From Bifidobacterium imperatoris (GTDB lineage: Bacteria > Actinomycetota > Actinomycetes > Actinomycetales > Bifidobacteriaceae), in assembly GCF_002860405.1 (NCBI RefSeq), contig NZ_NMWV01000042.1, positions 1-13,445 on the forward strand: DNA of 13,445 bases, in the 5' to 3' direction. Every line of letters begins with the position of its first letter. The first letter of the stretch is position 1. The notes beneath the pieces were generated by a model. That model saw only the letters and a list, made by a program, of their open reading frames with translations, did no database searches and was not told the origin of the DNA. Shown one piece after another: positions 1 to 11,849 of this stretch. The position numbers were made by a program, and so were the translations under genes.

Positions 1-447
1 GCGTGAACAAGCTGCATAATGTGTCGGATAAACGCGGGAGAACGGACGCAACACCATCTTCATAGCGGTCTTCGCATACTCACGCGGATTGCTCGTGGAA
101 TGGCTGTGCGCGATGCGCACTGGTACGTCAGCATCCTTGGCTGCCTTCAAGGGAAAGACGCTCAGGGAATTCATATGCGAATGCACGATCGACGGACGCA
201 GTTCGCGGAACAAACGTTCACACGCTTTCATATACGCGGGCAGACGCTTGTAGGAGGGAATCTCAAACACTCGTCCGCCCAGAGATTCGATCTCCTCGGC
301 CGGCACTACGGTCGAATCATCCTGCACGATGAAATCAAATTGCACGCGGTCATGGTCGACATGACGATAATGATTCATCACCGTGGCCTCCACGCCACCG
401 CCCATCATGCGACCAACCACTTGAGCTACTCGGATAGGAACATTCAT
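1..447 (-). CDS. GT4-type glycosyltransferase, N-terminal part (runs off the left edge)
   Basis: The leftward frame from an ATG at 447 is open for 149 codons to the window edge, so only the N-terminal part is present. It begins MNVPIRVAQVVGRMMGGGVE and continues with ATVMNHYR. This is the usual opening of a GT4 (glycosyltransferase group 1) enzyme: a first beta strand, then a glycine-rich loop, here GRMMGGGVEA at about residues 12-21. A later stretch, VHSHMNSLSVFPLKAAKDADVPVRIAHSHS read in two parts, is typical of the first Rossmann domain of EpsF-like GT4 enzymes. A GAGG Shine-Dalgarno lies about 10 bases upstream of the ATG. It is divergent from the EPS operon at 984 and is probably the first gene of a second, leftward EPS gene set. 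A cytoplasmic role adding a sugar to the lipid-linked repeat unit is inferred; donor and acceptor are unknown. Confidence 0.8.
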   Translation of the reverse strand, partial: MNVPIRVAQVVGRMMGGGVEATVMNHYRHVDHDRVQFDFIVQDDSTVVPAEEIESLGGRVFEIPSYKRLPAYMKACERLFRELRPSIVHSHMNSLSVFPLKAAKDADVPVRIAHSHSTSNPREYAKTAMKMVLRPFSRVYPTHYAACSR

Positions 448-486
448 CCGGCAAAACCTCAGATGATGCGGCCAATGAATGCAAAC

Positions 487-513
487 AAACTGACATAACG
501 GGCGTTATCGGCT
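487..513 (+). repeat. Left copy of a 27-bp perfect inverted repeat (IR-L)
   Basis: This sequence is the exact reverse complement of 942-968 over all 27 bases; identity stops at the next base on both sides. It lies 39 bases upstream of the leftward glycosyltransferase start at 447. Its core is an internal dyad, ATAACG (495-500), GG (501-502), CGTTAT (503-508). It could be a recombination site for DNA inversion or, less likely given the length of identity, a repressor operator. Confidence 0.9.
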
Positions 514-550
514 AACAGTCTCTTCTCCACGGTTCTTCCTCCCTGCCTGC

Positions 551-564
551 GGCACAACTGTGCC
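551..564. promoter_or_regulatory. Perfect 6+2+6 dyad, possible operator
   Basis: GGCACA and TGTGCC are separated by AC, giving a perfect palindrome. It lies about 15-25 bases downstream of the start point predicted for the leftward promoter candidate at 585-611, so a bound dimeric regulator could block leftward transcription. No regulator is identified and the dyad could be chance. Confidence 0.3.
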
Positions 565-584
565 TCACGACAAAACTACAGAGC

Positions 585-611
585 AGTATAACCTACGGGG
601 GTGTCTGTCAC
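585..611 (-). promoter_or_regulatory. Candidate leftward promoter inside the invertible segment
   Basis: Read on the minus strand, GTGACA (606-611) and TATACT (585-590) resemble the -35 and -10 boxes, five of six bases each, but the 15-base spacer is short. The start point would be near 578. As drawn it would fire left, through the 487-513 repeat, into the glycosyltransferase at 447. If the segment inverts, it would point to the operon at 984. Confidence 0.35.
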
Positions 612-751
612 CCTTGGAAATGAGACACGGGGGAACATGCATTTTTTGCTTATAAACCGCAGAATAACAATGTTTATGGGACTCCCGGCAAAAGAGATTG
701 CGAACAATTTCTTAACACATATTCCACGTTCTAGACATTAAAAACGGGTGG

Positions 752-780
752 TTAAGCGCTTGCATCGTGCTTGATATAGG
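752..780 (+). promoter_or_regulatory. Weak candidate rightward promoter
   Basis: TATAGG at 775-780 is preceded by TGA at 772-774, giving an extended -10 form. A poor -35 match, TTAAGC (752-757), lies 17 bases upstream. It points at the EPS operon at 984. The match is weak and this call mainly records that the segment does not clearly carry only one promoter. Confidence 0.2.
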
Positions 781-941
781 GAGGACTCAGGGATCAAACA
801 ACACTAAGAGGAGCCAAAAGAATCTAGAAGGTTTTCAAAGATGCACGATTCAATCTCTCGAAGATTGATGTCATTAAGACCTTAAATACGAAAAATAGGA
901 TTCTTGCCATCAAGCTTCCCAGCATATCTTCGAACGAATTA

Positions 942-968
942 AGCCGATAACGCCCGTTATGTCAGTTT
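942..968 (-). repeat. Right copy of the 27-bp perfect inverted repeat (IR-R)
   Basis: This is the exact reverse complement of 487-513, so the 2-bp core of the ATAACG/CGTTAT dyad reads CC here and GG in the left copy. It ends 15 bases before the ATG at 984, so the transcript leader and Shine-Dalgarno of the EPS operon begin at once after the repeat. Inversion would swap the promoter but leave both ribosome-binding sites intact. Confidence 0.9.
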
Positions 969-983
969 TGTGGGGGTTGCGGC

Positions 984-2168
984 ATGAGCGTGGTGTCATC
1001 GGTTCAGCATGTGTTCGTTGTGGGGTCGAAGGGGATTCCGGGTAGTTACGGTGGTTATGAGACGTTCGTTGATCGTCTGACGGAGCGTCATGCTTCGGAG
1101 CCGGGGTTGAAGTACCACGTGGCGTGTAAGTCGGTGTCGGAGTCGGGTCGTTTCTTGTACCATAACGCGGATTGCTTCAGGGTGAGGGTGCCGCAGATTG
1201 GCCCGGCTCAGGCGATTTGGTATGACGTTGCTGCGTTGAACGAGTGCGTGCGCTACATTCGCGCGAACCGTATCGAGAATCCCATCGTGTATGTGTTAGC
1301 ATGCCGTATCGGCCCGTTCGCTGCGCATTTCGAACGTGTGATCCATAAGCTGGGTGGCAAGTTGTACGTGAACCCGGACGGGCATGAGTGGATGCGTGCG
1401 AAGTGGAGCGCGCCGGTGCGTCGTTACTGGAAGCTGTCCGAGCAGATGATGACGAAGCATGCGGACCTGATGGTGTGCGATTCGGTGAACATGGAGCGGT
1501 ACATCCGCGAGGAGTATGCGGCGTATGACCCGCAGACCACGTTCATCGCGTACGGGGCGGACGCGCGTGCGAGCGAACTGGCGGACGACGATCCGAAGCT
1601 GATGGATTGGTTCCGCGATAAGGGGCTCTCCCCGAAGTCGTATTATCTGGTGGTGGGCCGTTTCGTGCCGGAGAACAACTACGAGACGATGATCCGCGAG
1701 TTCATGGCGAGCAGTTCGAAACGGGACTTTGCGCTGGTAACGAATGTTTCCGACAAGTTCCTCGAGGAGTTGAAGGAGAAGACGCATTTCGACCAGGATC
1801 CTCGCATCAAGTTCGTGGGCACCGTGTACGACCGTGAACTCCTGATGAAGATTCGTGAGGATGCATACGCATATTTCCACGGGCATGAAGTGGGCGGCAC
1901 GAACCCGAGCCTGTTGGAGGCGTTGGCCTCCACGGACTTGAACCTACTTTTGGGTGTGGGCTTCAACCGTGAGGTCGCGCAGGACGCTGCTCTGTACTGG
2001 TCCAAGGAGCCCGGCAACCTGGCTGCCTTGATCAACAGTGCCGATGCCATGACTCCTGACGAGATTCACGCGCTCGGCGTCAAGGCCAAGCAACGCATCG
2101 CTGACGCGTACAGCTGGCAACACATCGCCGACCAATACAAAAACGTCTTCCTCAACGAGACGAAATAG
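984..2168 (+). CDS. DUF1972 / Cps2T-like beta-1,4-rhamnosyltransferase
   Basis: Predicted cytoplasmic glycosyltransferase of 394 residues with the N-terminal DUF1972 domain followed by a GT4 C-terminal domain. Diagnostic pieces are GSKGIPGSYGGYETFVDRL at residues 14-32 and YVNPDGHEWMRAKW at about 128-141. In the C-terminal half VVGRFVPENN is the donor-site strand, and GGTNPSLLEAL (304-314) holds the usual conserved glutamate. The family includes streptococcal Cps2T/WchF, which transfers rhamnose to the first sugar of the lipid-linked repeat, so an early step in EPS assembly is likely; rhamnose itself is inferred. The ATG at 984 follows a GGGGG Shine-Dalgarno and sits 15 bases after the 942-968 repeat. 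This gene is markedly GC-richer than the rest of the operon, which suggests it is the conserved anchor of the cluster. Confidence 0.85.
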   Translation: MSVVSSVQHVFVVGSKGIPGSYGGYETFVDRLTERHASEPGLKYHVACKSVSESGRFLYHNADCFRVRVPQIGPAQAIWYDVAALNECVRYIRANRIENPIVYVLACRIGPFAAHFERVIHKLGGKLYVNPDGHEWMRAKWSAPVRRYWKLSEQMMTKHADLMVCDSVNMERYIREEYAAYDPQTTFIAYGADARASELADDDPKLMDWFRDKGLSPKSYYLVVGRFVPENNYETMIREFMASSSKRDFALVTNVSDKFLEELKEKTHFDQDPRIKFVGTVYDRELLMKIREDAYAYFHGHEVGGTNPSLLEALASTDLNLLLGVGFNREVAQDAALYWSKEPGNLAALINSADAMTPDEIHALGVKAKQRIADAYSWQHIADQYKNVFLNETK

Positions 2169-2177
2169 AGAGGCGAG

Positions 2178-3374
2178 ATGATGAAAATCCTCGCCATTCA
2201 CAATTTCCATCGTTCGGGTTCTGCAAGCGGTGACGATCAGGTATTTAAGAGCGAAACCAGTATGCTCGAGGAACATGGTCATGAAGTAATTCGTTATACA
2301 GTGTCGAATGATGAGTTCGACAAGGCGGGTGCAGCAGGTAAGTTGGCCGCTACGTTCGGCATGCTGTGGTCATTTAAGAACTACCGGGCGGTGACTTCTC
2401 TGATTCGTGAGCACCATCCCGACATAGTACATGTGCATACATTTTTCCCGCTATTGTCTCCGTCGATTCTGTATGCGGCGAAGCGTATGGGTGTGCCTGT
2501 GGTGGCTACATTGCACGATACTCGTTTCGTCTGCCCTGTGGCGACCTCACTGCGTGACGGACAGATTTGCAATGAATGTGGTGACGGTCATTATCTGCGG
2601 ATGGCTCGCCATGCCTGTTTCAAGGGATCTCGTCTGCAGAGTCTTCTCGTGGCGGGCATCTTCAAGTACCACCGCGTCCGTCGAAGCTTTTATAAGCAAA
2701 TCGATCGATACATTTGTCTCAATGAGAATCAGATTGACTTGTTAAAGGGTATAGGCTTCGATTCGTCGAAGATAGTAAAGAAATATAATTTTGTTCCTGA
2801 TGCTCAGGCGAATATGGCTGCTGAGCATGTATCTGGCTTGCCTGAACGGTATGCAGTTTTTTATGGTCGTATTGGTGCAGAGAAAGGCATTCGTGTACTT
2901 CAACGTATCTGGAATGAGATTGACGATATTCCGCTCGTGGTGATGGGCGGAGGCCCGCTGGAAAGCGAGTTCAAAGCTTGGGCGGATAAGAAGCCGAATG
3001 TCTATTTCCTTGGGTACACGCCGCATGAACAATGCATGGCTATTGCGAAAGCCGGAGAGTTTGTAGTGTTTCCCTCGATTTGGTACGAGGGCTGCTCGAT
3101 GGTCGAGATTGAATCCGAAAGCCTTGGATTGCCGCTTGTAGCAACCGACTTGGGGTTTTCTGTGGAAGCAGTCAATGACGGTATCAACGGTGTGAAAGTT
3201 CCATTGGGAGATATGCGCGGTTGGGTTACATCCATTCGTGGTCTTTGGGAAAAACCAGAGCTATGCAAAAAAATGGGCATAAATGCTCGTCAGGATTATG
3301 AGGACAAATACACACCTGAAAATAACTATCAACAACTGATCAGTATCTATCAATCCACTTCGGGAAGAGGTTGA
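2178..3374 (+). CDS. GT4 family glycosyltransferase (EPS)
   Basis: Predicted retaining glycosyltransferase with two Rossmann-like domains, 398 residues. The N-terminus (ILAIHNFHRSGSASGDDQVF) and IVHVHTFFPLLSPSI are typical of the acceptor domain. The C-terminal domain shows FYGRIGAEKGI and VMGGGP and an EX7E motif with E304 and E312 in YEGCSMVEIE. A cysteine-containing insert (CNECGDGHYLRMARHAC, about residues 131-147) resembles a subgroup of GT4 enzymes and could bind metal. The gene starts 9 bases after the rhamnosyltransferase. Two adjacent ATG codons are possible, at 2178 and 2181; the AGAGAGG Shine-Dalgarno is better spaced for the second. It probably adds the third sugar of the repeat unit; substrate is unknown. 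Confidence 0.85.
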   Translation: MMKILAIHNFHRSGSASGDDQVFKSETSMLEEHGHEVIRYTVSNDEFDKAGAAGKLAATFGMLWSFKNYRAVTSLIREHHPDIVHVHTFFPLLSPSILYAAKRMGVPVVATLHDTRFVCPVATSLRDGQICNECGDGHYLRMARHACFKGSRLQSLLVAGIFKYHRVRRSFYKQIDRYICLNENQIDLLKGIGFDSSKIVKKYNFVPDAQANMAAEHVSGLPERYAVFYGRIGAEKGIRVLQRIWNEIDDIPLVVMGGGPLESEFKAWADKKPNVYFLGYTPHEQCMAIAKAGEFVVFPSIWYEGCSMVEIESESLGLPLVATDLGFSVEAVNDGINGVKVPLGDMRGWVTSIRGLWEKPELCKKMGINARQDYEDKYTPENNYQQLISIYQSTSGRG

Positions 3375-3378
3375 TTCG

Positions 3379-4032
3379 ATGAGCTTCGATTCAAATATTG
3401 CAAACATTGACAAACTCATCATTCTCATGCGCACAGGCACCAAATTTATACGTGGATTGTGGATTCGTTTATTTCTTCGCGAAGCACATGGCTTATTACT
3501 GGTAGGACAACACGTCACCATATCCCATGCACATAATGTGCGTTGCGGGAAAAACGTAAAGTTTGAAGATTACGCAGAAATACAGGGACTGTGTTCTAAC
3601 GGTTTAAATTTTGGCAACGACGTCACTATTGGTCGCGCCACTATGATTCGTCCATCAAGCTATTATGGCGGCGATTACGGATATGGAATAACTATCGGTG
3701 ACAATTCCTCAATTGGCCCTCATGGGTATATAGGATGTTCTGGTCGTATTTACATCGGCAATAATGTGATGATAGGACCAAAGTGTAGCCTATTTGCGGA
3801 AAATCATGTATTTAGCAATTCGAATGAAAGCATAAAAAGCCAAGGAGTTCAACAGCGCGGAATAACAATTGGCGATGATTGTTGGATAGGCAGCAACGTT
3901 GTCATTTTAGATGGCGTATCGATTGGTAGTCATGTAGTAATCGGTGCAGGGACATTAATTGCAAAAGATGTTCCTGACTACAGCATTATTCTAGACAAAC
4001 GAGACAGAATGACACGTCAAAGAATAAAATAA
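3379..4032 (+). CDS. Hexapeptide-repeat (left-handed beta-helix) acyltransferase
   Basis: The 217-residue product consists largely of hexapeptide repeats of the type [LIV]GxxxxI. Examples are FGNDVTIG, IGDNSSIG, IGNNVMIG, IGDDCWIGSNVVILDGVSIG and IGAGTLIAKDV, which form a left-handed beta helix. ENHVFSN at 141-147 supplies the conserved histidine (H143) used as catalytic base in the xenobiotic/galactoside acetyltransferase group. Such enzymes normally act as trimers and use acetyl-CoA. In this position it is most likely a cytoplasmic O- or N-acetyltransferase that decorates a sugar of the EPS repeat unit; the sugar and site are unknown. It starts 4 bases after the preceding stop, with GAAGAGG as Shine-Dalgarno. 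A 142-base gap follows it, the largest within the operon. Confidence 0.85.
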   Translation: MSFDSNIANIDKLIILMRTGTKFIRGLWIRLFLREAHGLLLVGQHVTISHAHNVRCGKNVKFEDYAEIQGLCSNGLNFGNDVTIGRATMIRPSSYYGGDYGYGITIGDNSSIGPHGYIGCSGRIYIGNNVMIGPKCSLFAENHVFSNSNESIKSQGVQQRGITIGDDCWIGSNVVILDGVSIGSHVVIGAGTLIAKDVPDYSIILDKRDRMTRQRIK

Positions 4033-4174
4033 TTAAGAGTTAAGCACTTGTAGTACGAAGTTATTATGCACAATTTTATGTGCTGAATAAGAGAATTATA
4101 TTGGATAGTACTGGAGAACCATAAGGACAATACAGCCAATGGTTATATAACATATCCATATGAGGGGAGACTAA

Positions 4175-5170
4175 ATGTCTTTAGTTACAATCATTCTTCC
4201 TGCGTATAATGCTGAAAAGACGATTGCAAGAGCGATAGAATCAGCGCTTAGCCAAGAATATACAGATCTCGAGGTAATTGTAGTCGATGATGGATCCTCT
4301 GATTCGACATTGAACGTTTGTAAGGCCTTAGCAGATAAGGACAATAGACTCAAGGTTTTGCACATAAACAATAGCGGTCCAAGCGCAGCGCGCAACTACG
4401 GGCTGTCACGAGCAAACGGTGAATTTATTTGCTTTATGGATGCAGATGATGAAATGAGCTCGACAATGATTTCGCAGATGACCTCTAATATGCAAGACGA
4501 CATAGATTTGGTGGCATGCGGATACAAAGTACGATCCAATAATGGGGAACAAGCTTTTGAACAAAGGCTTGATGACAAAACATATTCGAATGATCACCTA
4601 TATGAATTTATAGGAAAACTGCAAGAAGCAAAAGCGTTCAATCCTCTATGGAATAAAATATTTCGCCGCAGTATAATCGACGGCAATAATCTAATAATGG
4701 ACACGTCCGTTGATATGGGTGAGGACTTTCTATTTGTTGTAGATTATTGTGAAAAAAGTAAAAAAAATTATAAGACACTTTCTTCGCCTCTATATAATTA
4801 TGAATTATCCAATAACGGATTACAGGTCACGGCAAATAGGAATAAGAACCTTGATCGCAGATTGTCGCAACTTGAACAATTGAATAAAATATTCAATCAA
4901 AGAAATTATCCAATGGATATAATCTATAAAGAAAAGTTGCGTATTCTCTATACTTCATTATTGGAATCCAGCGATTTACGTATCTTACTGAATGAAGTCA
5001 ATAAAAAAGAATATTTAAATGATTTTATTAATTTGGATGTAAAACTTAGCGGAAAGTATAACATCTTTCTGAAAATTCTTAAAATCAAGCATATTGGTAT
5101 CGTTTATTTATCCATAAAGCTCTTTAAATTGGTAAAGAAAATACAAGGAAAAAGTTTTAACTGGGGATGA
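4175..5170 (+). CDS. GT2 family glycosyltransferase (EPS)
   Basis: A 331-residue GT-A fold enzyme. The N-terminal half is a textbook GT2 domain: SLVTIILPAYNAEKTIARAI at residues 2-21, the nucleotide-binding VVDDGSSDST at 36-45, SGPSAARNYGL, and the metal-binding DXD as MDADDE (D89, D91, D92). WNKIFRRSII and MGEDFLF in the middle match the acceptor-side motifs of capsule GT2 enzymes. The C-terminal third is lysine- and isoleucine-rich with no recognised domain and may lie on the membrane. The start has a strong GAGGGGAGA Shine-Dalgarno. The gene is AT-rich compared with its upstream neighbours and uses codons such as ATA and AGA often, a sign of transfer. Product linkage cannot be read from sequence. 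Confidence 0.88.
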   Translation: MSLVTIILPAYNAEKTIARAIESALSQEYTDLEVIVVDDGSSDSTLNVCKALADKDNRLKVLHINNSGPSAARNYGLSRANGEFICFMDADDEMSSTMISQMTSNMQDDIDLVACGYKVRSNNGEQAFEQRLDDKTYSNDHLYEFIGKLQEAKAFNPLWNKIFRRSIIDGNNLIMDTSVDMGEDFLFVVDYCEKSKKNYKTLSSPLYNYELSNNGLQVTANRNKNLDRRLSQLEQLNKIFNQRNYPMDIIYKEKLRILYTSLLESSDLRILLNEVNKKEYLNDFINLDVKLSGKYNIFLKILKIKHIGIVYLSIKLFKLVKKIQGKSFNWG

Positions 5171-5171
5171 G

Positions 5172-6365
5172 ATGAAATTTAGCAAGAATCTTCAGATAGT
5201 ATTTATAGCACTTGCAATTATCCCTTTCTTTCAAAATGCAATTGGATATAAATACCCGCCACTCGGCCTAGTTGTTCAGTTCTCTAGATTTTTCTTCTTT
5301 ACCATATGTATTGCATTAATATTGATAAATGCTAGCGCCTTTAGCTTTATAACTAAAAATATAAAGATATACTTAATTATTGCACTTATATTTACATTTA
5401 TATGTTCCGCTATAGTAAATAATACGAATGTTGTTGCGGTATTACAGTTATCTTTATATATTTTATACCCATTTTTACTATTTTCTGTATGGTCGCATAG
5501 CCCGGTGGAAACCTTAAATATATGTAAGGGGGTAACATACGGTCTTAATATACTTGTTCTTGTAAACCTTGTCATGATGCTATGCTTCCCACAAGGCCTA
5601 TTTCAGACAGTAAGTTCAGACACAGTATCATATTATTATTTATTTGGTGCTAAAAATCAAATGGTTGCACCAATTATGACCTGCTTGTTCTTTAATGCGG
5701 AAACAGCGTACAGAAGCTACAACAAAATTGTGACGAAGACATCATTGTTTATGAGCCTCATATGTACATTGGAATTGATTATTGGCGGTAGTGGCACGGG
5801 ACTTATTGTTTTGTTTGTATTTATTGTTCTTTGTTTACTCGAATTAAAACATCGAACGATAAGTCCTAATTTATCTTTAATTGTGCTGCTTGCTTCTTTC
5901 CTAGGTATTGTTGTCTTTCGAATCCAGAATATTTTTAGTTTTCTTATTGTCGATGTTTTACATAAGTCTTTAACACTCTCCGATAGAACATACATTTGGG
6001 ATTCCGCAATTGAAAGTATTTTGTCGCACCTAATTCTTGGAACTGGAATTACTGATTCATTATCAGGTAATGTACATTTGAAATTATCATATTTGGTAAA
6101 AGATATTTTTGCCCATGACCTGTACCTGGATTATTTGCTTATGGGGGGAGTTCCGGCACTATGTATCTTTATTTGTCTCCTGATTTCTGTCAAGAATTCT
6201 TATTGTTATATTTTGAATAGGAATAGGACCTTTATTTGGTGGGGAATTGTAATATACCTATTTGCTTCCATTGTTGAAATATATACAACAAATTTTTGTT
6301 TATTCCTCATGTTTGCTTATATGAGTATATGTGACTATTCGATCAGGCACGGTCATTTGATTTAG
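5172..6365 (+). CDS. wzy: Wzy-like polysaccharide polymerase (O-antigen polymerase/ligase family)
   Basis: A very hydrophobic 397-residue membrane protein with roughly ten to twelve predicted transmembrane stretches, for example LQIVFIALAIIPFF, YLIIALIFTFICSAI, LFVFIVLCLLEL and LSLIVLLASFLGIVVF. Near the C-terminus, LGTGITDS and AHDLYLDYLLMGGVPAL (from A314) match the periplasmic-type loop and following helix of the Wzy_C family, where an HN/HD-x-YL pattern is common. It would polymerise lipid-linked repeat units on the outer face of the membrane. It starts 2 bases after the GT2 stop codon, implying translational coupling. It is the most AT-rich gene in the window (9 G/C in 60 bases at 5341-5400). 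Assignment rests on topology, motif and position next to a flippase; sequence conservation in this family is low. Confidence 0.8.
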   Translation: MKFSKNLQIVFIALAIIPFFQNAIGYKYPPLGLVVQFSRFFFFTICIALILINASAFSFITKNIKIYLIIALIFTFICSAIVNNTNVVAVLQLSLYILYPFLLFSVWSHSPVETLNICKGVTYGLNILVLVNLVMMLCFPQGLFQTVSSDTVSYYYLFGAKNQMVAPIMTCLFFNAETAYRSYNKIVTKTSLFMSLICTLELIIGGSGTGLIVLFVFIVLCLLELKHRTISPNLSLIVLLASFLGIVVFRIQNIFSFLIVDVLHKSLTLSDRTYIWDSAIESILSHLILGTGITDSLSGNVHLKLSYLVKDIFAHDLYLDYLLMGGVPALCIFICLLISVKNSYCYILNRNRTFIWWGIVIYLFASIVEIYTTNFCLFLMFAYMSICDYSIRHGHLI

Positions 6366-6382
6366 ATTTAAATGGGATATTT

Positions 6383-7855
6383 ATGACAAGTTTAAAAAAG
6401 AATCTTATTTATAATATGGCCTATCAGATACTGGTCATATTGCTTCCTCTTATTACAGCCCCTTATGTTTCAAGAGTCCTTGGTGCCGCTGGCCTCGGTA
6501 CGTATTCGTACGTTTATTCAATTTCTTATTACTTTGGCCTTGTAGGTATGCTCGGTATCACGAATCATGGTAGTCGAAGCATTGCGTTGCATCGAACAGA
6601 CAAGTTACAGACCGCACAAACATTTTGGAATATATATGCAATTCAGTTTATCAGTACGGGAATCGCGGTTCTTTTATATACCGTTTTTGCTTTTCTCTTA
6701 TTTAATGGCGATAAAATAATTGCTTATATTAATATTCTCTTCGTTATATCTTATTTGCTTGATATAAATTGGTTGTTCTTCGGTCTTGAGCAATTCAAGA
6801 TTACGGTCATTAGAAATACCATAATCAAGGTTGCGACCGCGTGTTCGATTTTTATTTTTGTCAAAAACCGTGATGATTTGTGGCTATACACACTAATTAT
6901 GGCTCTGGGAGCTTCATTAAGTCAAATCTATCTTTGGATGAATGTTCATAAATTTGTTCCATTCTGCAAGCCAAAGTGGTACGAGGTGAAAAAGAACATC
7001 AAGCCAGTAATAGTCTTATTTATACCTGCTATTGCCTATAGCATTTATAAGGTCTTAGACAAGATTATGCTTGGCGCCATGTCTGATATGACCCAGGTTG
7101 GTCTATTTGATAATGCGGAACGAATCGTAAATATCCCGGTAAGTCTCATTACTGCCTTTGGTACGGTTATGTTGCCGAGGATTTCCAATCTCATCGCATC
7201 TGGTGACTCAAATCAAATAAAGAAATACAATGCCATTTCGTTCCGCTACTTCACTATGCTTGTTTGTGGTGCGGCGTTTGGTCTTGCTGGAATTAGCAAT
7301 GTTCTCGCTCCAGTTTATTTTGGAGACGAATTCACAGGAAGTTCACCTATTATATTTGGCTTAAGCTTTAGTCTTATTTTTATGATCTGGGCTAACATCC
7401 TACGAACTCAGTATCTGATTCCCAATAAAAAAGATATGCCATACGTCATTTCGACATTGGTTGGTGCAGCTATCAATATTTCCATAAATTTGCTTTTAAT
7501 ACCCCACCTACAAGCAATAGGAACAATGATTGGTACCATCCTAGCCGAACTTTCTGTATTCTGTGTTCAATACATATTTACCAGAAAAGAATTCCCAACT
7601 CTTCAATATCTGAAATCGGGAATTGTGTTCTTCCCGATAGGGGCTTTAATGGGGATAGCTGTTTGGGTTGTCGGTCACATTCTCGGCTCAACGCTTATCA
7701 CACTGGTCGTTCAGATTCTCCTCGGTGCCTTCATCTATGGAATCGGGTCTCTGATTTATCTCATCGCAATTAAAGACGATCTATTCATTTCCATGTTAAA
7801 GAAAACTCTTCATATTAATATGAATCCGCATTTGCCAAAACATGCATCTATCTAA
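6383..7855 (+). CDS. wzx: Wzx-like flippase (polysaccharide biosynthesis/PST family)
   Basis: A 490-residue integral membrane protein with about twelve to fourteen predicted helices. The N-terminus is characteristic of Wzx: SLKKNLIYNMAYQILVILLP, then LITAPYVSRVLGAAGLGTYSY, then GMLGITNHGSRSIA. The loop DKIMLGAMSDMTQVGLFDNAERIV at about 227-250 is the conserved central segment of the family. Such proteins move undecaprenyl-diphosphate-linked repeat units across the cytoplasmic membrane by a MATE/MOP-type mechanism. It lies 17 bases downstream of the Wzy gene, and the pair defines a Wzx/Wzy-dependent EPS pathway. The Shine-Dalgarno before the ATG (GGGA) is modest. Confidence 0.9.
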   Translation: MTSLKKNLIYNMAYQILVILLPLITAPYVSRVLGAAGLGTYSYVYSISYYFGLVGMLGITNHGSRSIALHRTDKLQTAQTFWNIYAIQFISTGIAVLLYTVFAFLLFNGDKIIAYINILFVISYLLDINWLFFGLEQFKITVIRNTIIKVATACSIFIFVKNRDDLWLYTLIMALGASLSQIYLWMNVHKFVPFCKPKWYEVKKNIKPVIVLFIPAIAYSIYKVLDKIMLGAMSDMTQVGLFDNAERIVNIPVSLITAFGTVMLPRISNLIASGDSNQIKKYNAISFRYFTMLVCGAAFGLAGISNVLAPVYFGDEFTGSSPIIFGLSFSLIFMIWANILRTQYLIPNKKDMPYVISTLVGAAINISINLLLIPHLQAIGTMIGTILAELSVFCVQYIFTRKEFPTLQYLKSGIVFFPIGALMGIAVWVVGHILGSTLITLVVQILLGAFIYGIGSLIYLIAIKDDLFISMLKKTLHINMNPHLPKHASI

Positions 7856-7885
7856 TTTGTAAATCAAAGAAAAGGAGTAATAATA

Positions 7886-9034
7886 ATGTCCCGCAATGAC
7901 AAAACTGCCACAATCACATTCCATAACTCTTATAACTGCGGCTCTATGCTCCAGGCATTAGCTCTTCAAAGAGTCCTAATTGACAAATACGGTGCCGATA
8001 ATGATATTCTTGATTTTTCCAATCAGGGACAAAAAGAAATGTACAGCACTTTTTGGAAAGTCACCGGCTTGAAGTCATTTATAAAGAATGCACTTTGGGC
8101 CACTGTTTATAATCGTATTCAGCAACAGGCTGCCGCATACGAAGCGTTTGAGCATAAATATTTCCGTCTGTCACAAGATGGCTACACTTCTAATAAGGAA
8201 TTGACTGCCACTAATTCCAAGTATCGGAAATTCATCACTGGCAGCGATCAAGTATGGAATATCCACTGCATGGATGCCGATGACGCGTATTATCTCAACT
8301 TTGTTTCTGATTCCAACAAGCGATATGCCTATGCCGTAAGCTTCGGTGCCAATAATCCTTTTGCAGATAATTCGCTTAAGGATCACTACCTTGATCTTGT
8401 CAAGAAATTTAACAAAATCTCGGTTCGAGAACAGAATGCAAGGAAATGGGTTTCCGCAGCCACCGGTAGAGAGGTTTCACTCTGCGTGGACCCCACCATG
8501 TTGCTTTCTCAAGAAGAATGGGAGAAGACAGTACAACTCGGAAGTTCCCCCATTATCCAAGGCGACTACATCTTCTATTACTGCTTCAGCATCTCACAAG
8601 AGATAGCGTCCTTCCTCCACCAGGTATCCAAAAAAACCGGTATGCCGGTATACTTCTTTGAACCTAAGGAATGGGCTCTTCGTTGCTGCTGGAAGAACAA
8701 GATTCGCTTGGTGAAGAAATATGGCCCGGAAGCCTTCTTGAATTATATGAAATACGCAAAGATTGTCTTCACTACCTCCTTCCATGGAACAGCTTTCTCA
8801 ACGATTTTCCATAAGAACTTTTGGTACATCGATTCTGGGCATAATGATTTATCCAAGGATGATCGAGCCGTGTCGTTCCTAACCCAGCTTCAACTCACAG
8901 ATCGCTACAAAACCATTCCCTCGCTTCTCCGTGCAGATCTGTCAATAGCCCCTGATTACGCCCAACCGGATCAAGCGCTTGCACAACTCCGCGAAGAAGC
9001 TTTTGAATATATCGAGGGTATAGTAAATGACTGA
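7886..9034 (+). CDS. Polysaccharide pyruvyl transferase family protein
   Basis: A 382-residue protein of the CsaB/WcaK-type polysaccharide pyruvyl transferase family. Motifs in order: TITFHNSYNCGSMLQALALQ (9-28); ITGSDQVWN with G119-N125; YAYAVSFGAN; KISVREQNA; CVDPTMLLS; and TTSFHGTAFS (296-305), which is the late active-site region. Members transfer pyruvate from phosphoenolpyruvate to sugar hydroxyls to form a ketal; some family members act on other substrates, so the activity is inferred. The start is secure: AAAAGGAG lies 8 bases upstream of the ATG. It comes after the polymerase and flippase genes and overlaps the next gene by 8 bases, so it is probably made together with the GT14 enzyme. 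Confidence 0.85.
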   Translation: MSRNDKTATITFHNSYNCGSMLQALALQRVLIDKYGADNDILDFSNQGQKEMYSTFWKVTGLKSFIKNALWATVYNRIQQQAAAYEAFEHKYFRLSQDGYTSNKELTATNSKYRKFITGSDQVWNIHCMDADDAYYLNFVSDSNKRYAYAVSFGANNPFADNSLKDHYLDLVKKFNKISVREQNARKWVSAATGREVSLCVDPTMLLSQEEWEKTVQLGSSPIIQGDYIFYYCFSISQEIASFLHQVSKKTGMPVYFFEPKEWALRCCWKNKIRLVKKYGPEAFLNYMKYAKIVFTTSFHGTAFSTIFHKNFWYIDSGHNDLSKDDRAVSFLTQLQLTDRYKTIPSLLRADLSIAPDYAQPDQALAQLREEAFEYIEGIVND

Positions 9035-9926
9035 TAAATCCGATAAGCAGGCGTACCTGCTCATGGCACACAACAATCTTGAACAACTTAACTATCTGAT
9101 TAGATCTTTAGATTCGGAATTCAGTGATATTTTCCTTCATCTCGATGCTAAATCTAAAATCAATCCGAATGAGATTGTTAAACCTGTTTCTTCTCAGCTC
9201 TATTTCTGTAATCGAATTAATGTGTATTGGGCGGAATACAGTCAAGTGCAATGTGAGTTGAATCTATTGCGCCTTGCTACTCGGACAGGTAAGTACAATT
9301 ACTACCATCTGATATCCGGTATGGATTTTCCCCTGAAGACTCAGAGGGAAATCCATACCATGTTAAGAAATCGGAACGATATCTTCATTCATTTCACTAC
9401 GCCCAAAAATGTTGAACTAACATTACCTTTTGTACGCTACTATCACTTATTCCAAAAACAACTCTGTGTAGTCAATAGAGATCATACTTTTTCTATTTAT
9501 AAAGTATTTGAAAAAATCTTCATCCTGTTTCAACGATTAATTCGTTTGAATCGTATACCGAATGACATTGTGATTAAAAAAGGAGCAAACTGGTTCAGCA
9601 TTCCTGACGATTTCGCAAGATACGTTCTTGACCATCAGGATTACATAGAGAAGCTATTTAGGAACACTCGTAGTCCTGATGAATTCTTCATGCAAACTCT
9701 TGCGTTCAATAATCCCGATTACAAGAAACGTATATACAGGTTCAATGAGGATGATTCATCCGAATCATGTCTGAGACATATCGATTGGTTGAGAGGCAGC
9801 CCCTATACTTTCACCATAAATGATTATGATGAACTCGTTCACTGCGGGATGATTTTTGCAAGAAAATTTGATTTAAACAAAGATAGACAAATCATCATAA
9901 AACTTATGAGCCGTCTTTTTGACTAA
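9027..9926 (+). CDS. GT14 core-2/I-branching-type glycosyltransferase
   Basis: A 299-residue protein of the core-2/I-branching enzyme family (GT14). Evidence in order: QAYLLMAHNNLEQLNYLIRS at residues 8-27; IFLHLDAKSK (about 35-44); VYWAEYSQVQCELNLLRLA; YYHLISGMDFPLKTQ (95-109 region); and SPDEFFMQTLAFN at 216-228, in which E219 aligns with the catalytic glutamate of animal C2GnT enzymes. Bacterial members are usually annotated as beta-1,6-N-acetylglucosaminyltransferases, but other sugars such as xylose are known in the family, so the donor is uncertain. A branching role in the EPS repeat is inferred. The ATG lies inside the end of the pyruvyl transferase gene (8-base overlap). It is the last gene of the rightward operon. 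Confidence 0.85.
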   Translation: MTDKSDKQAYLLMAHNNLEQLNYLIRSLDSEFSDIFLHLDAKSKINPNEIVKPVSSQLYFCNRINVYWAEYSQVQCELNLLRLATRTGKYNYYHLISGMDFPLKTQREIHTMLRNRNDIFIHFTTPKNVELTLPFVRYYHLFQKQLCVVNRDHTFSIYKVFEKIFILFQRLIRLNRIPNDIVIKKGANWFSIPDDFARYVLDHQDYIEKLFRNTRSPDEFFMQTLAFNNPDYKKRIYRFNEDDSSESCLRHIDWLRGSPYTFTINDYDELVHCGMIFARKFDLNKDRQIIIKLMSRLFD

Positions 9927-10003: not shown

Positions 10004-10063
10004 GATGTGGTCTGTTTTTTGTTTCGTCTCGTAGTAGAGGCGGAACAAAAAACAGACCACATC
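10004..10063 (+). terminator. Long hairpin after the EPS operon, probable terminator
   Basis: Arms 10004-10030 and 10037-10063 pair over 27 positions around a GTAGTA loop. Only two positions are not Watson-Crick, and both are T:G pairs in plus-strand RNA; in the minus-strand RNA they would be C-A mismatches. The structure therefore favours a rightward transcript, in line with ending the EPS operon 78 bases downstream of the last stop. A run of six T lies inside the 5' arm, not after the stem, so it is not a classic intrinsic terminator. Confidence 0.5.
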
Positions 10064-10681: not shown

Positions 10682-11836
10682 CTATTCTTCAGACAGTCCA
10701 AGGGTCATGCGGATATATGCCGCATGTTCTCTGAGGTATTCGCGCAGGTACGGAATCGCAAAATCCACTTTCCCATACCCGCAATCCTCAATAACCTGCG
10801 CCTCGATCAATCTAATGCGGTAGATACCGGCATATTTCACATCTTTGCCCATGCGTTCGGCAATAGTTGACGTCGATGAAGGCCCATCATCCTGAGCCAT
10901 AGCCAGCAGATATGTTTTATCGATAGGAGAAAGACCATCCAGTTCAGGGCCGTGAACCGTATCTCCCAGGCGGCTCATCGCATCCTTCACACCAGCCTGC
11001 GCCTCATCGATTGACACCTCGACGGGGCCAGACAAATCATGATTACGTCGCACAACCCGCCAGATATGGTATCCAACCAATTGGATCATAAATGGGTAAC
11101 CCGCCGTCGCCTGTGTAGCAATATGGAGCGGCTCATCCTTCAGAATAATTCCGGAAGCATGGAAAGTATCGGCAAGAGCACTCGATACTTCCTCTAAAGG
11201 AATGTCGCCAAGTCGTTCCGGCTGTGCACGGCGCAAGAAAGTCATTACATCGTCATTCAACCATTTAGAAGACATCGAGGGAAGTCCGGCAAAGACCAAA
11301 GCCAAGTTACGATCCTCACTGATGAGATGCTGCGCTGCAGTTGCCACAGCTACCATATCCGATCTATCTGCTGCCTGGGCTTCATCAATCGTCACCAGTA
11401 ATCCCGCATTACGCTTTTCGAGCGTATCCAAACGAGCACTCATGGCTTCACGCAACGTCAAAGGCATGGAATCCCTCTCATAGCGCATTCCACCCAGACT
11501 GCCGCCAACATTAAAAACACTCACCGAAGGCTCAAATGAAAAACTGAAGTTCCCTTTCTGCGGCTGCATCTTGCTCAGTAATCGTTGGGCCATGCCAGCA
11601 GAAGCGGTTTCGCTAATGGCCTGCCAGCTGCGCTGTTCAGCTATGCGCCTGAACTCCGTTAGCATTACAGTTTTGCCAATACCTCTAGCCCCTGTGATTC
11701 TCATCAAACGCCCTGGAGCTCCAGACCCGTTATCCAATCCCTCTTGAAAATCATCAAGGACTAGATCTCGTCCAATCAATACTGGAGGAAGATGACCAGC
11801 ACTCGGTTTGAAAGGATTCGTTCTTGCGCTCACCAT
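10682..11836 (-). CDS. AAA+ (ORC/Cdc6-like, AAA_16) ATPase, function unknown
   Basis: An intact 384-residue P-loop ATPase. From the chosen start, the N-terminal leader is VSARTNPFKPSAGHLPPVLIGRDLVLDDF. It is followed by Walker A in RITGARGIGKTVML (about residues 46-59), and Walker B as GLLVTIDEAQ, with LALVFAGLPSM as the sensor-1 region. The C-terminus (SSTSTIAERMGKDVKYAGIYRIRLIEAQVIEDCGYGKVDFAIPYLREYL, read in parts) is a winged-helix domain. This architecture is related to Orc1/Cdc6-like and STAND-type ATPases, so DNA binding is plausible but the biological role is not known. Upstream, TTG at 11848 is in frame but overlaps GAGGGA, which is a good Shine-Dalgarno for the ATG at 11836, so 11836 is preferred. 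Three phased TTTTAGA repeats lie over its promoter. It is the only intact gene in this decayed stretch. Confidence 0.8.
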   Translation of the reverse strand: MVSARTNPFKPSAGHLPPVLIGRDLVLDDFQEGLDNGSGAPGRLMRITGARGIGKTVMLTEFRRIAEQRSWQAISETASAGMAQRLLSKMQPQKGNFSFSFEPSVSVFNVGGSLGGMRYERDSMPLTLREAMSARLDTLEKRNAGLLVTIDEAQAADRSDMVAVATAAQHLISEDRNLALVFAGLPSMSSKWLNDDVMTFLRRAQPERLGDIPLEEVSSALADTFHASGIILKDEPLHIATQATAGYPFMIQLVGYHIWRVVRRNHDLSGPVEVSIDEAQAGVKDAMSRLGDTVHGPELDGLSPIDKTYLLAMAQDDGPSSTSTIAERMGKDVKYAGIYRIRLIEAQVIEDCGYGKVDFAIPYLREYLREHAAYIRMTLGLSEE

Positions 11837-11849
11837 AGCTTCCCTCAAA

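Follow-up and report, generated by a model that had tools for sequence, protein, structure and literature searches.

Divergent EPS operons and an exact inverted repeat

The window, that is, the whole 13,445-nt stretch of Bifidobacterium imperatoris DNA analysed here, begins with two divergent EPS operons. The left operon is represented by its first gene (1..447, minus strand), which is cut by the window end and encodes a GT4-type glycosyltransferase (PF13439, PF13579) with 85% identity over 148 aa to its homologue in the related genome G024. The first gene of the right operon (984..2168, plus strand) encodes a DUF1972 protein (Cps2T-like rhamnosyltransferase), and the remainder of that operon (2178..9926, plus strand) covers GT4, hexapeptide transferase, GT2, Wzy-type, Wzx-type, pyruvyltransferase and Branch family members. 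The ORFs and Pfam families thus bear out the two divergent EPS gene starts, at 447 leftward and 984 rightward, that a preliminary description of this DNA had claimed. The EPS locus is probably chromosomal, because the protein encoded at 984, which is listed on two contigs, occurs on one of 2,696,962 bases, the longest.

Between the two gene starts, the 27-nt stretches 487-513 and 942-968 are inverted with respect to each other and 100% complementary, with 428 nt between the arms, as had been stated in the preliminary description. This pair alone was free of mismatches among the ten listed inverted pairs (minimum 14 nt). The layout is that of an inverton, in which inverted repeats flank a non-coding segment located between genes that it can drive, and the 428-bp interior (514..941) is referred to below as the cassette.

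Directly 3' of the right EPS operon, a near-perfect 27-bp hairpin (10004-10063; 93%, 6-nt loop) was observed, which could be a terminator or the remnant of a small mobile element. An Rfam element in the window was rejected, as the Rfam scan of the window gave 0 matches at gathering threshold.

The repeats carry dif arms around another core

Each of the two repeats reads AAACTGACATAA-CGGGCG-TTATCGGCT. In the left site (487..513, plus strand), which was defined by the exact inverted repeat and by the identity of its arms to the dif of the genus, the XerD-type arm occupies 487-498, the core 499-504 and the XerC-type arm 505-513. In the right site (942..968, minus strand), an inverted copy, the core is unchanged and reads CGCCCG on the plus strand (951-956). 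XerC and XerD half-site arms around a 6-bp core are the make-up of a Xer site, and the 27-bp length of the repeat would fit one such site. The XerC and XerD sides were assigned by comparison with the dif proposed for Frankia alni, CACGCCGATAATGCACATTATGTCAAGT, whose arms match those of the genus dif (as given in a passage of PMC3025954).

Comparative analysis of the genus showed what the arms resemble. The window arms TGACATAA and TTATCGG are the same as those of the genus dif at 15/15 compared positions in both copies; the outer arm bases, which are less conserved, were left out of the dif-arm requirement. When up to one mismatch was allowed, the pattern TGACATAA-N6-TTATCGG was matched in 108/112 Bifidobacterium genomes. 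Exactly one TGACATAACGTACATTATCGG was found in 93 of the 107 genomes with listed matches, and core variants were found in the other 14 (hand count). Ten genomes had a near-genome-length contig; in eight of them this copy was located at a relative contig position of 0.45-0.54, and the remaining two had it at 0.14 and 0.81, an argument from position that assumes that contigs often start at the origin. Read on the opposite strand, the site is AGCCGATAA-TGTACG-TTATGTCAGA. We took this recurring single-copy site to be the putative chromosomal dif of Bifidobacterium.

The window sites differ from it in the core, which is CGGGCG in the window and CGTACA in the chromosomal dif. They also differ in number and place, with two copies at an EPS locus instead of a single copy at the terminus. 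Because dif arms surround another core, the window repeats are, judged by their sequence, dif-like XerC/XerD sites and not dif proper. Matches to the same arm pattern with other cores were also observed in G006, G033, G040, G045, G056 (contig 36) and G103, among others, and second dif-like copies were present in G001 and G004.

Paired sites at EPS operon starts in ten genomes

A long-arm version of the pattern with a GC-only core (<=2 mismatches) gave 28 matches in 16/112 Bifidobacterium genomes, and the same pattern read backwards gave 0 matches in the 112 genomes. With a shorter version, 14/189 Bifidobacteriaceae genomes were matched, and all 14 were within the genus set. G/C cores were demanded by all the patterns used for the distribution, core and leader-frame analyses.

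Two or three GC-core sites were located at EPS operon starts in 10/112 Bifidobacterium species genomes, namely those of B. saguini (G002), B. oedipodis (G003) and B. avesanii (G005), and G024, G034, G035, G044, G056, G062 and G073. EPS-type Pfam families were above the cut-off in 18 of the 20 site-adjacent proteins scanned, and the families beside the sites were GT4 and GT2 glycosyltransferases, DUF1972, Alg14-like proteins, UDP-glucose dehydrogenase and DUF4422. The remaining two proteins gave weak matches, to a hexapeptide transferase in B. avesanii and to a GT2 just below the cut-off in G056. Most sites were no more than 90 bp from an EPS gene start, with a distance of 303 bp in B. avesanii, whose two sites were on separate contigs. 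Where adjacent sites shared a contig, they were inverted in 10/10 cases from 9 genomes, as they are in the window.

Four cores, CGGGCG, CGGCCG, CCGCCC and CCGCCG, were found across the ten EPS genomes, one per genome. Within genomes, the core was identical in 20/20 site pairs (11 genomes and the window) and the flanks diverged; the pattern used for this comparison allowed any G/C core and fixed most arm positions, which makes the core and the flanks the informative columns. Equal cores combined with divergent flanks would be the trace expected of a recombinase that needs equal cores.

A single site each was found with the long-arm pattern in G023, G049 and G069, and since there is one site in each, the switch may be locked or lost in these genomes. 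In G031 (L105:6950-7276), a partly decayed pair was observed in which the right site is an in-frame part of the Cps2T gene (MPSSADNGRYV...), and this is perhaps a locked switch. At 11/13 Cps2T-like loci of relatives without a strict pair, no site within 4 mismatches was found just upstream, so the dif-like switch device is not general.

An AAA-ATPase gene lies 3' of the EPS operon in the window (10682-11848), a 44-aa remnant of it (84% identity) is found next to the G069 site, on the side of the cassette (L121:7144-7275), and the 3.8-kb cassette of B. oedipodis contains two other ATPase genes (PF09820, PF13173/PF13635).

Several matches were located elsewhere. G030 contained two sites with the core GCGGCG on separate contigs (L085:7502 and L086:5855) and outside EPS genes, one of which adjoins a type I restriction-modification operon (Pfam) at its 3' end. 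The single site of G060, which is close to a Cas9 gene and not among EPS genes, looks like a chance match. Two Propionibacteriaceae MAGs, Nt197P3bin23 and bin38 (L007, L009, L010, L017), contained many dif-like copies with the core CGCACG within a few kb, including five direct copies in ~3.6 kb of L009, which resemble module or cassette arrays. A scan of viral contigs with the arm pattern matched 72 stretches; of 25 stretches from one search, the Bifidobacterium ones alone were taken up.

The cassette interior and a leader frame through the site

Cassette positions 512..772 align in the same orientation with one half of a B. saguini cassette (78% identity, 265 columns), and this conserved half is taken as the promoter half. 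It would read to the left (minus strand), as inferred from the direction of the start codon described below and of a -10-like TATACT (585..590, minus strand) that falls within it. The preliminary description had pointed to promoter-like boxes in the interior; of these, the TATACT, a putative promoter element without a consensus -35, stood, and a consensus sigma-70 promoter was rejected, since the consensus scan of 400-1050 returned 0 sites (shuffle mean 0.8). A palindrome-like GTTAAGCGCTTGC at 751..763, also within the conserved half, may be a regulator site, and a motif similar to it was seen by eye in the B. saguini cassette.

A leader ORF (459..530, minus strand; GTG...TGA, VEKRLLADNARYVSLFAFIGRII) runs from the left end of the cassette through the left site, and its stop lies 11 nt before the ATG at 447. 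Its GTG at 530 has a Shine-Dalgarno-like GGGAGG on its 5' side (538..543, minus strand). In the inverted form the leader would be VEKRLLADNARYVSFVGVAA, with its TGA overlapping the ATG at 984 (ATGA, 984-987). The earlier statement that inversion leaves both ribosome-binding sites in place outside the cassette was therefore incomplete, as the cassette carries a Shine-Dalgarno-like sequence and a start codon of its own.

The same frame was examined in the relatives. Read outward, the site can be translated in one frame as GCC GAT AAx xxx xxT TAT GTC (A-D-N or K-x-x-Y-V), and in the +2 frame a stop always falls within the site. The stop of the leader frame overlaps the EPS gene start (ATGA, GTGA, TTGA or TGATG kinds) in 15/30 flanks, and that of the +1 frame in 1/30. 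These 30 flanks are not independent, as they include the homologous G024/G035 and G044/G062 loci, a contig-end duplicate of B. saguini and two G030 flanks, and among the 15 overlaps the one at the G035 Cps2T gene is the homologue of the one in G024. The count took genes of at least 140 codons; the G035 site at a contig end (L079), G049, G060 and the right-hand, decayed G031 site did not enter it, and 0 fusions were counted since the next gene was taken. The leader frame of G073 forms an in-frame fusion with the Cps2T gene.

A start codon with a Shine-Dalgarno-like sequence was present at exactly one end in 9/9 complete cassettes, under a Shine-Dalgarno rule that was framed after the leader frames had been inspected; the window cassette has it at the left end. 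The start codon was located 16 to 34 nt before the CCGATAA of the site, and 19 nt before it in 6/9 cassettes. The cassette seems to supply the ribosome-binding site and the start codon for a leader translated through the site. A structured leader RNA was rejected, as 184/200 shuffles fold at least as well (z 1.31).

Related cassettes are found in both orientations

Comparison of orientation among relatives showed homologous cassettes in both directions relative to their genes. In G044 and G062, the interiors are antiparallel (87% over 237 bp) and the right-hand genes are parallel (94.6% over 387 bp of DNA, 95% for the protein). In G024 and G035, the interiors are parallel (93% over 193 bp), and a homologous GT gene is on the right in one and on the left in the other, its flank being 91% identical over 335 bp. 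The arm variant TGCCATAA travels with this GT gene, which would place the exchange between the variant base and the cassette edge, a span of ~20 bp including the core. In G044/G062, the arm variant CGACGTAA travels with the cassette and not with the gene; this is not what a simple core crossover would give, and it counts against the proposed switch mechanism.

The draft assembly of B. saguini contains the junctions expected of both orientations of one cassette with two flanks. At the start of its contig 14, 284 bases repeat 803-1087 as the reverse complement (99.6%), which joins one gene's flank to both ends of the cassette. Contig 10 opens with 289 bases that match the right end of this cassette exactly and then continues into another flank. 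The simplest cause of these double junctions would be a mixed culture; a true duplication could also produce them. A 77-bp overlap at contig ends in G035 gives the Cps2T leader two continuations, one into the cassette and one into a different flank. These relatives, which have the same kind of site, support the phase-variation switch that had been suggested for the window, and for this B. imperatoris strain we infer it from them.

Larger arrangements were also observed. G024 (L077, L161, L078; C14:1-38000) contains three sites and three operons, two of which face each other inside ~31 kb and one of which is outside, and G073 (L083, L162, L084; C23) contains two facing operons in ~22 kb between inverted sites. 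Inverting these ~31-kb and ~22-kb segments could possibly present another operon to the cassette.

Candidate recombinases and alternative explanations

XerC-like and XerD proteins were found in all three genomes checked. The recombinase search of G035 covered two families, PF00589 and PF00239, in a draft genome of the kind that can miss genes. PF00239 gave no match, and PF00589 gave two: XerD (TIGR02225, 360 bits, cut-off 330), and a XerC-like protein whose best match, TIGR02224 (XerC), scored 308 bits, below the cut-off of 335, a point against the XerC/XerD explanation. Inversion of the cassette is probably catalysed by XerC and XerD. Recombination at canonical dif depends on FtsK and takes place between directly oriented sites, which counts against an inversion by these enzymes. 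On Acinetobacter plasmids, XerC/XerD invert DNA between opposed equal-spacer sites in living cells, as described in passages of PMC9947245. When B. breve UCC2003 carried pMP7017, two genes for XerC were among the most upregulated and one eps2 half was down; the excerpted text of that report draws no link between the rise of XerC and the fall of eps2 (PMC10832533).

A dedicated tyrosine invertase, encoded elsewhere and descended from Xer with a preference for dif-like sites, could flip the cassette instead. More than two PF00589 proteins were found in 12/13 genomes searched, which speaks for such an enzyme, and to our knowledge the known switches all use dedicated invertases. We nevertheless regard this explanation as unlikely, since the arms are identical to those of dif and G035, whose contigs hold two configurations, has the XerC-like protein and XerD alone in PF00589 and 0 matches to PF00239. 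Moreover, among the listed PF00589 matches of 13 genomes, none was within the stretches extracted from those genomes. A bifidophage tyrosine invertase with its own short site, described in parts of PMC6109161, keeps an enzyme of this kind under consideration.

It is far less probable that the arms come from a Xer-using mobile element or a pdif-like module (IMEX kind), with inversion as a by-product. Xer-using elements and inversions between equal-spacer pXerC/D sites are known (passages of PMC5357621 and PMC9947245), and the G030 sites outside EPS genes, one of them beside the restriction-modification operon, would suit such an origin. However, the consistent inversion of adjacent same-contig sites, the short distance of most sites to an EPS gene start and the gene-coupled frame that crosses the sites all argue against it, and no mobility gene was seen between the window sites.

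That the repeats are regulator operators or structural DNA without recombination is the least credible reading: each arm does contain an operator-like internal palindrome, ATAACG-N2-CGTTAT, but the opposite orientations in relatives led us to reject a fixed operator, and both junction kinds in one assembly, a repeat length and layout fitting an 11-6-11 Xer site, and cores that are equal within each genome and of four kinds over the ten EPS genomes speak in the same direction. Homologous recombination between the 27-bp arms was rejected as the main route, as the arms are too short.

Discussion

We consider it likely that the EPS locus is subject to phase variation through a leader-coupled switch operated by XerC/XerD at inverted dif-like sites. 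In this mechanism, XerC and XerD, the housekeeping chromosome-dimer resolvases, would recombine the two inverted sites. The CGGGCG core that the sites share differs from the CGTACA core of dif, and the pair is therefore proposed to recombine with itself and not with dif. Each recombination event would flip the 428-bp cassette, which is proposed to carry the promoter together with the Shine-Dalgarno sequence and start codon of the short leader frame. The leader would be translated across the recombination site into the flank, with a stop that overlaps or lies close to the first EPS gene's start codon. With the promoter and the leader start both in the cassette, an inversion would hand both transcription and the coupled translation to the opposite operon. 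For the orientation that was sequenced, the prediction is that the left operon is on and the right operon (984-9926) off.

With somewhat less assurance, we also lean towards a broader proposal for the genus, in which XerC and XerD would double as Bifidobacterium EPS invertases, GC-only cores would insulate the EPS sites from dif, FtsK may link switching to cell division, and the leader that starts in the cassette and crosses the Xer site would be coupled to the EPS operon in front of it. The three sites of G024 would then form a multi-operon selector that also flips ~31 kb.

Invertible capsule promoters of Bacteroides likewise choose surface polysaccharides, with the serine invertase Mpi and the Tsr tyrosine invertases, and differ in having dedicated invertases and other sites. 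The Mpi and Tsr invertible promoters are named in passages of PMC4155821 and PMC6109161. Within Bifidobacterium, the locus is like eps2A/eps2B of B. breve UCC2003, where divergent EPS operons have an intergenic inverted repeat, promoter inversion turns one operon on and the other off, and the invertase of this invertible EPS promoter was yet to be identified, according to excerpts of a review (PMC4155821). The B. breve parallel drawn in the preliminary description thus holds at the level of arrangement. In contrast to the B. breve account, the repeat is here recognised as dif-like and XerC/XerD are proposed, and a leader frame is absent from the excerpted account in the review (PMC4155821).

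Similar inversions have been described outside EPS loci. For the pXerC/D (pdif) sites of Acinetobacter, passages of PMC9947245 report reversible inversions in clonal populations between opposed Xer sites with identical six-base spacers; those sites belong to plasmid modules with resistance genes, whereas the sites here flank a surface-sugar promoter cassette that is probably chromosomal. At the mba/UU172 loci of Ureaplasma parvum, a Xer-named tyrosine recombinase inverts DNA at short repeats and varies surface loci, and, unlike the arrangement proposed here, XerC bound the inverted repeats and CodV bound the putative dif site (parts of PMC3599477). The bifidophage Rin shufflon is likewise a case of inversion by a tyrosine recombinase in Bifidobacterium, with multi-site shuffling that varies phage receptor-binding proteins, but its recombinase adjoins the shufflon and its 11-bp rix site is unlike dif (passages of PMC6109161).

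A literature search of open-licence PMC papers found no link between Xer/dif and Bifidobacterium EPS, and the excerpted parts of the inverton papers PMC13343947 and PMC11892184 contain no mention of Xer or dif sites, nor did a word search of PMC5903667 turn one up. Within the scope of open-licence PMC papers, invertible EPS promoters are known from B. breve, and the dif-like sites, the proposed role of XerC/XerD and the leader frame are apparently new.

The flippable segment probably picks which of two sugar-coat gene sets is on. If the sites are dif-like, candidate enzymes can be named for the B. breve type of EPS switch, and a leader frame that crosses the site points to switches of this kind controlling translation besides transcription. 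If the proposal is true, surface-sugar switching in a major infant-gut genus would use the chromosome-segregation machinery, and such a switch could therefore arise from two 28-bp sites without the acquisition of an invertase.
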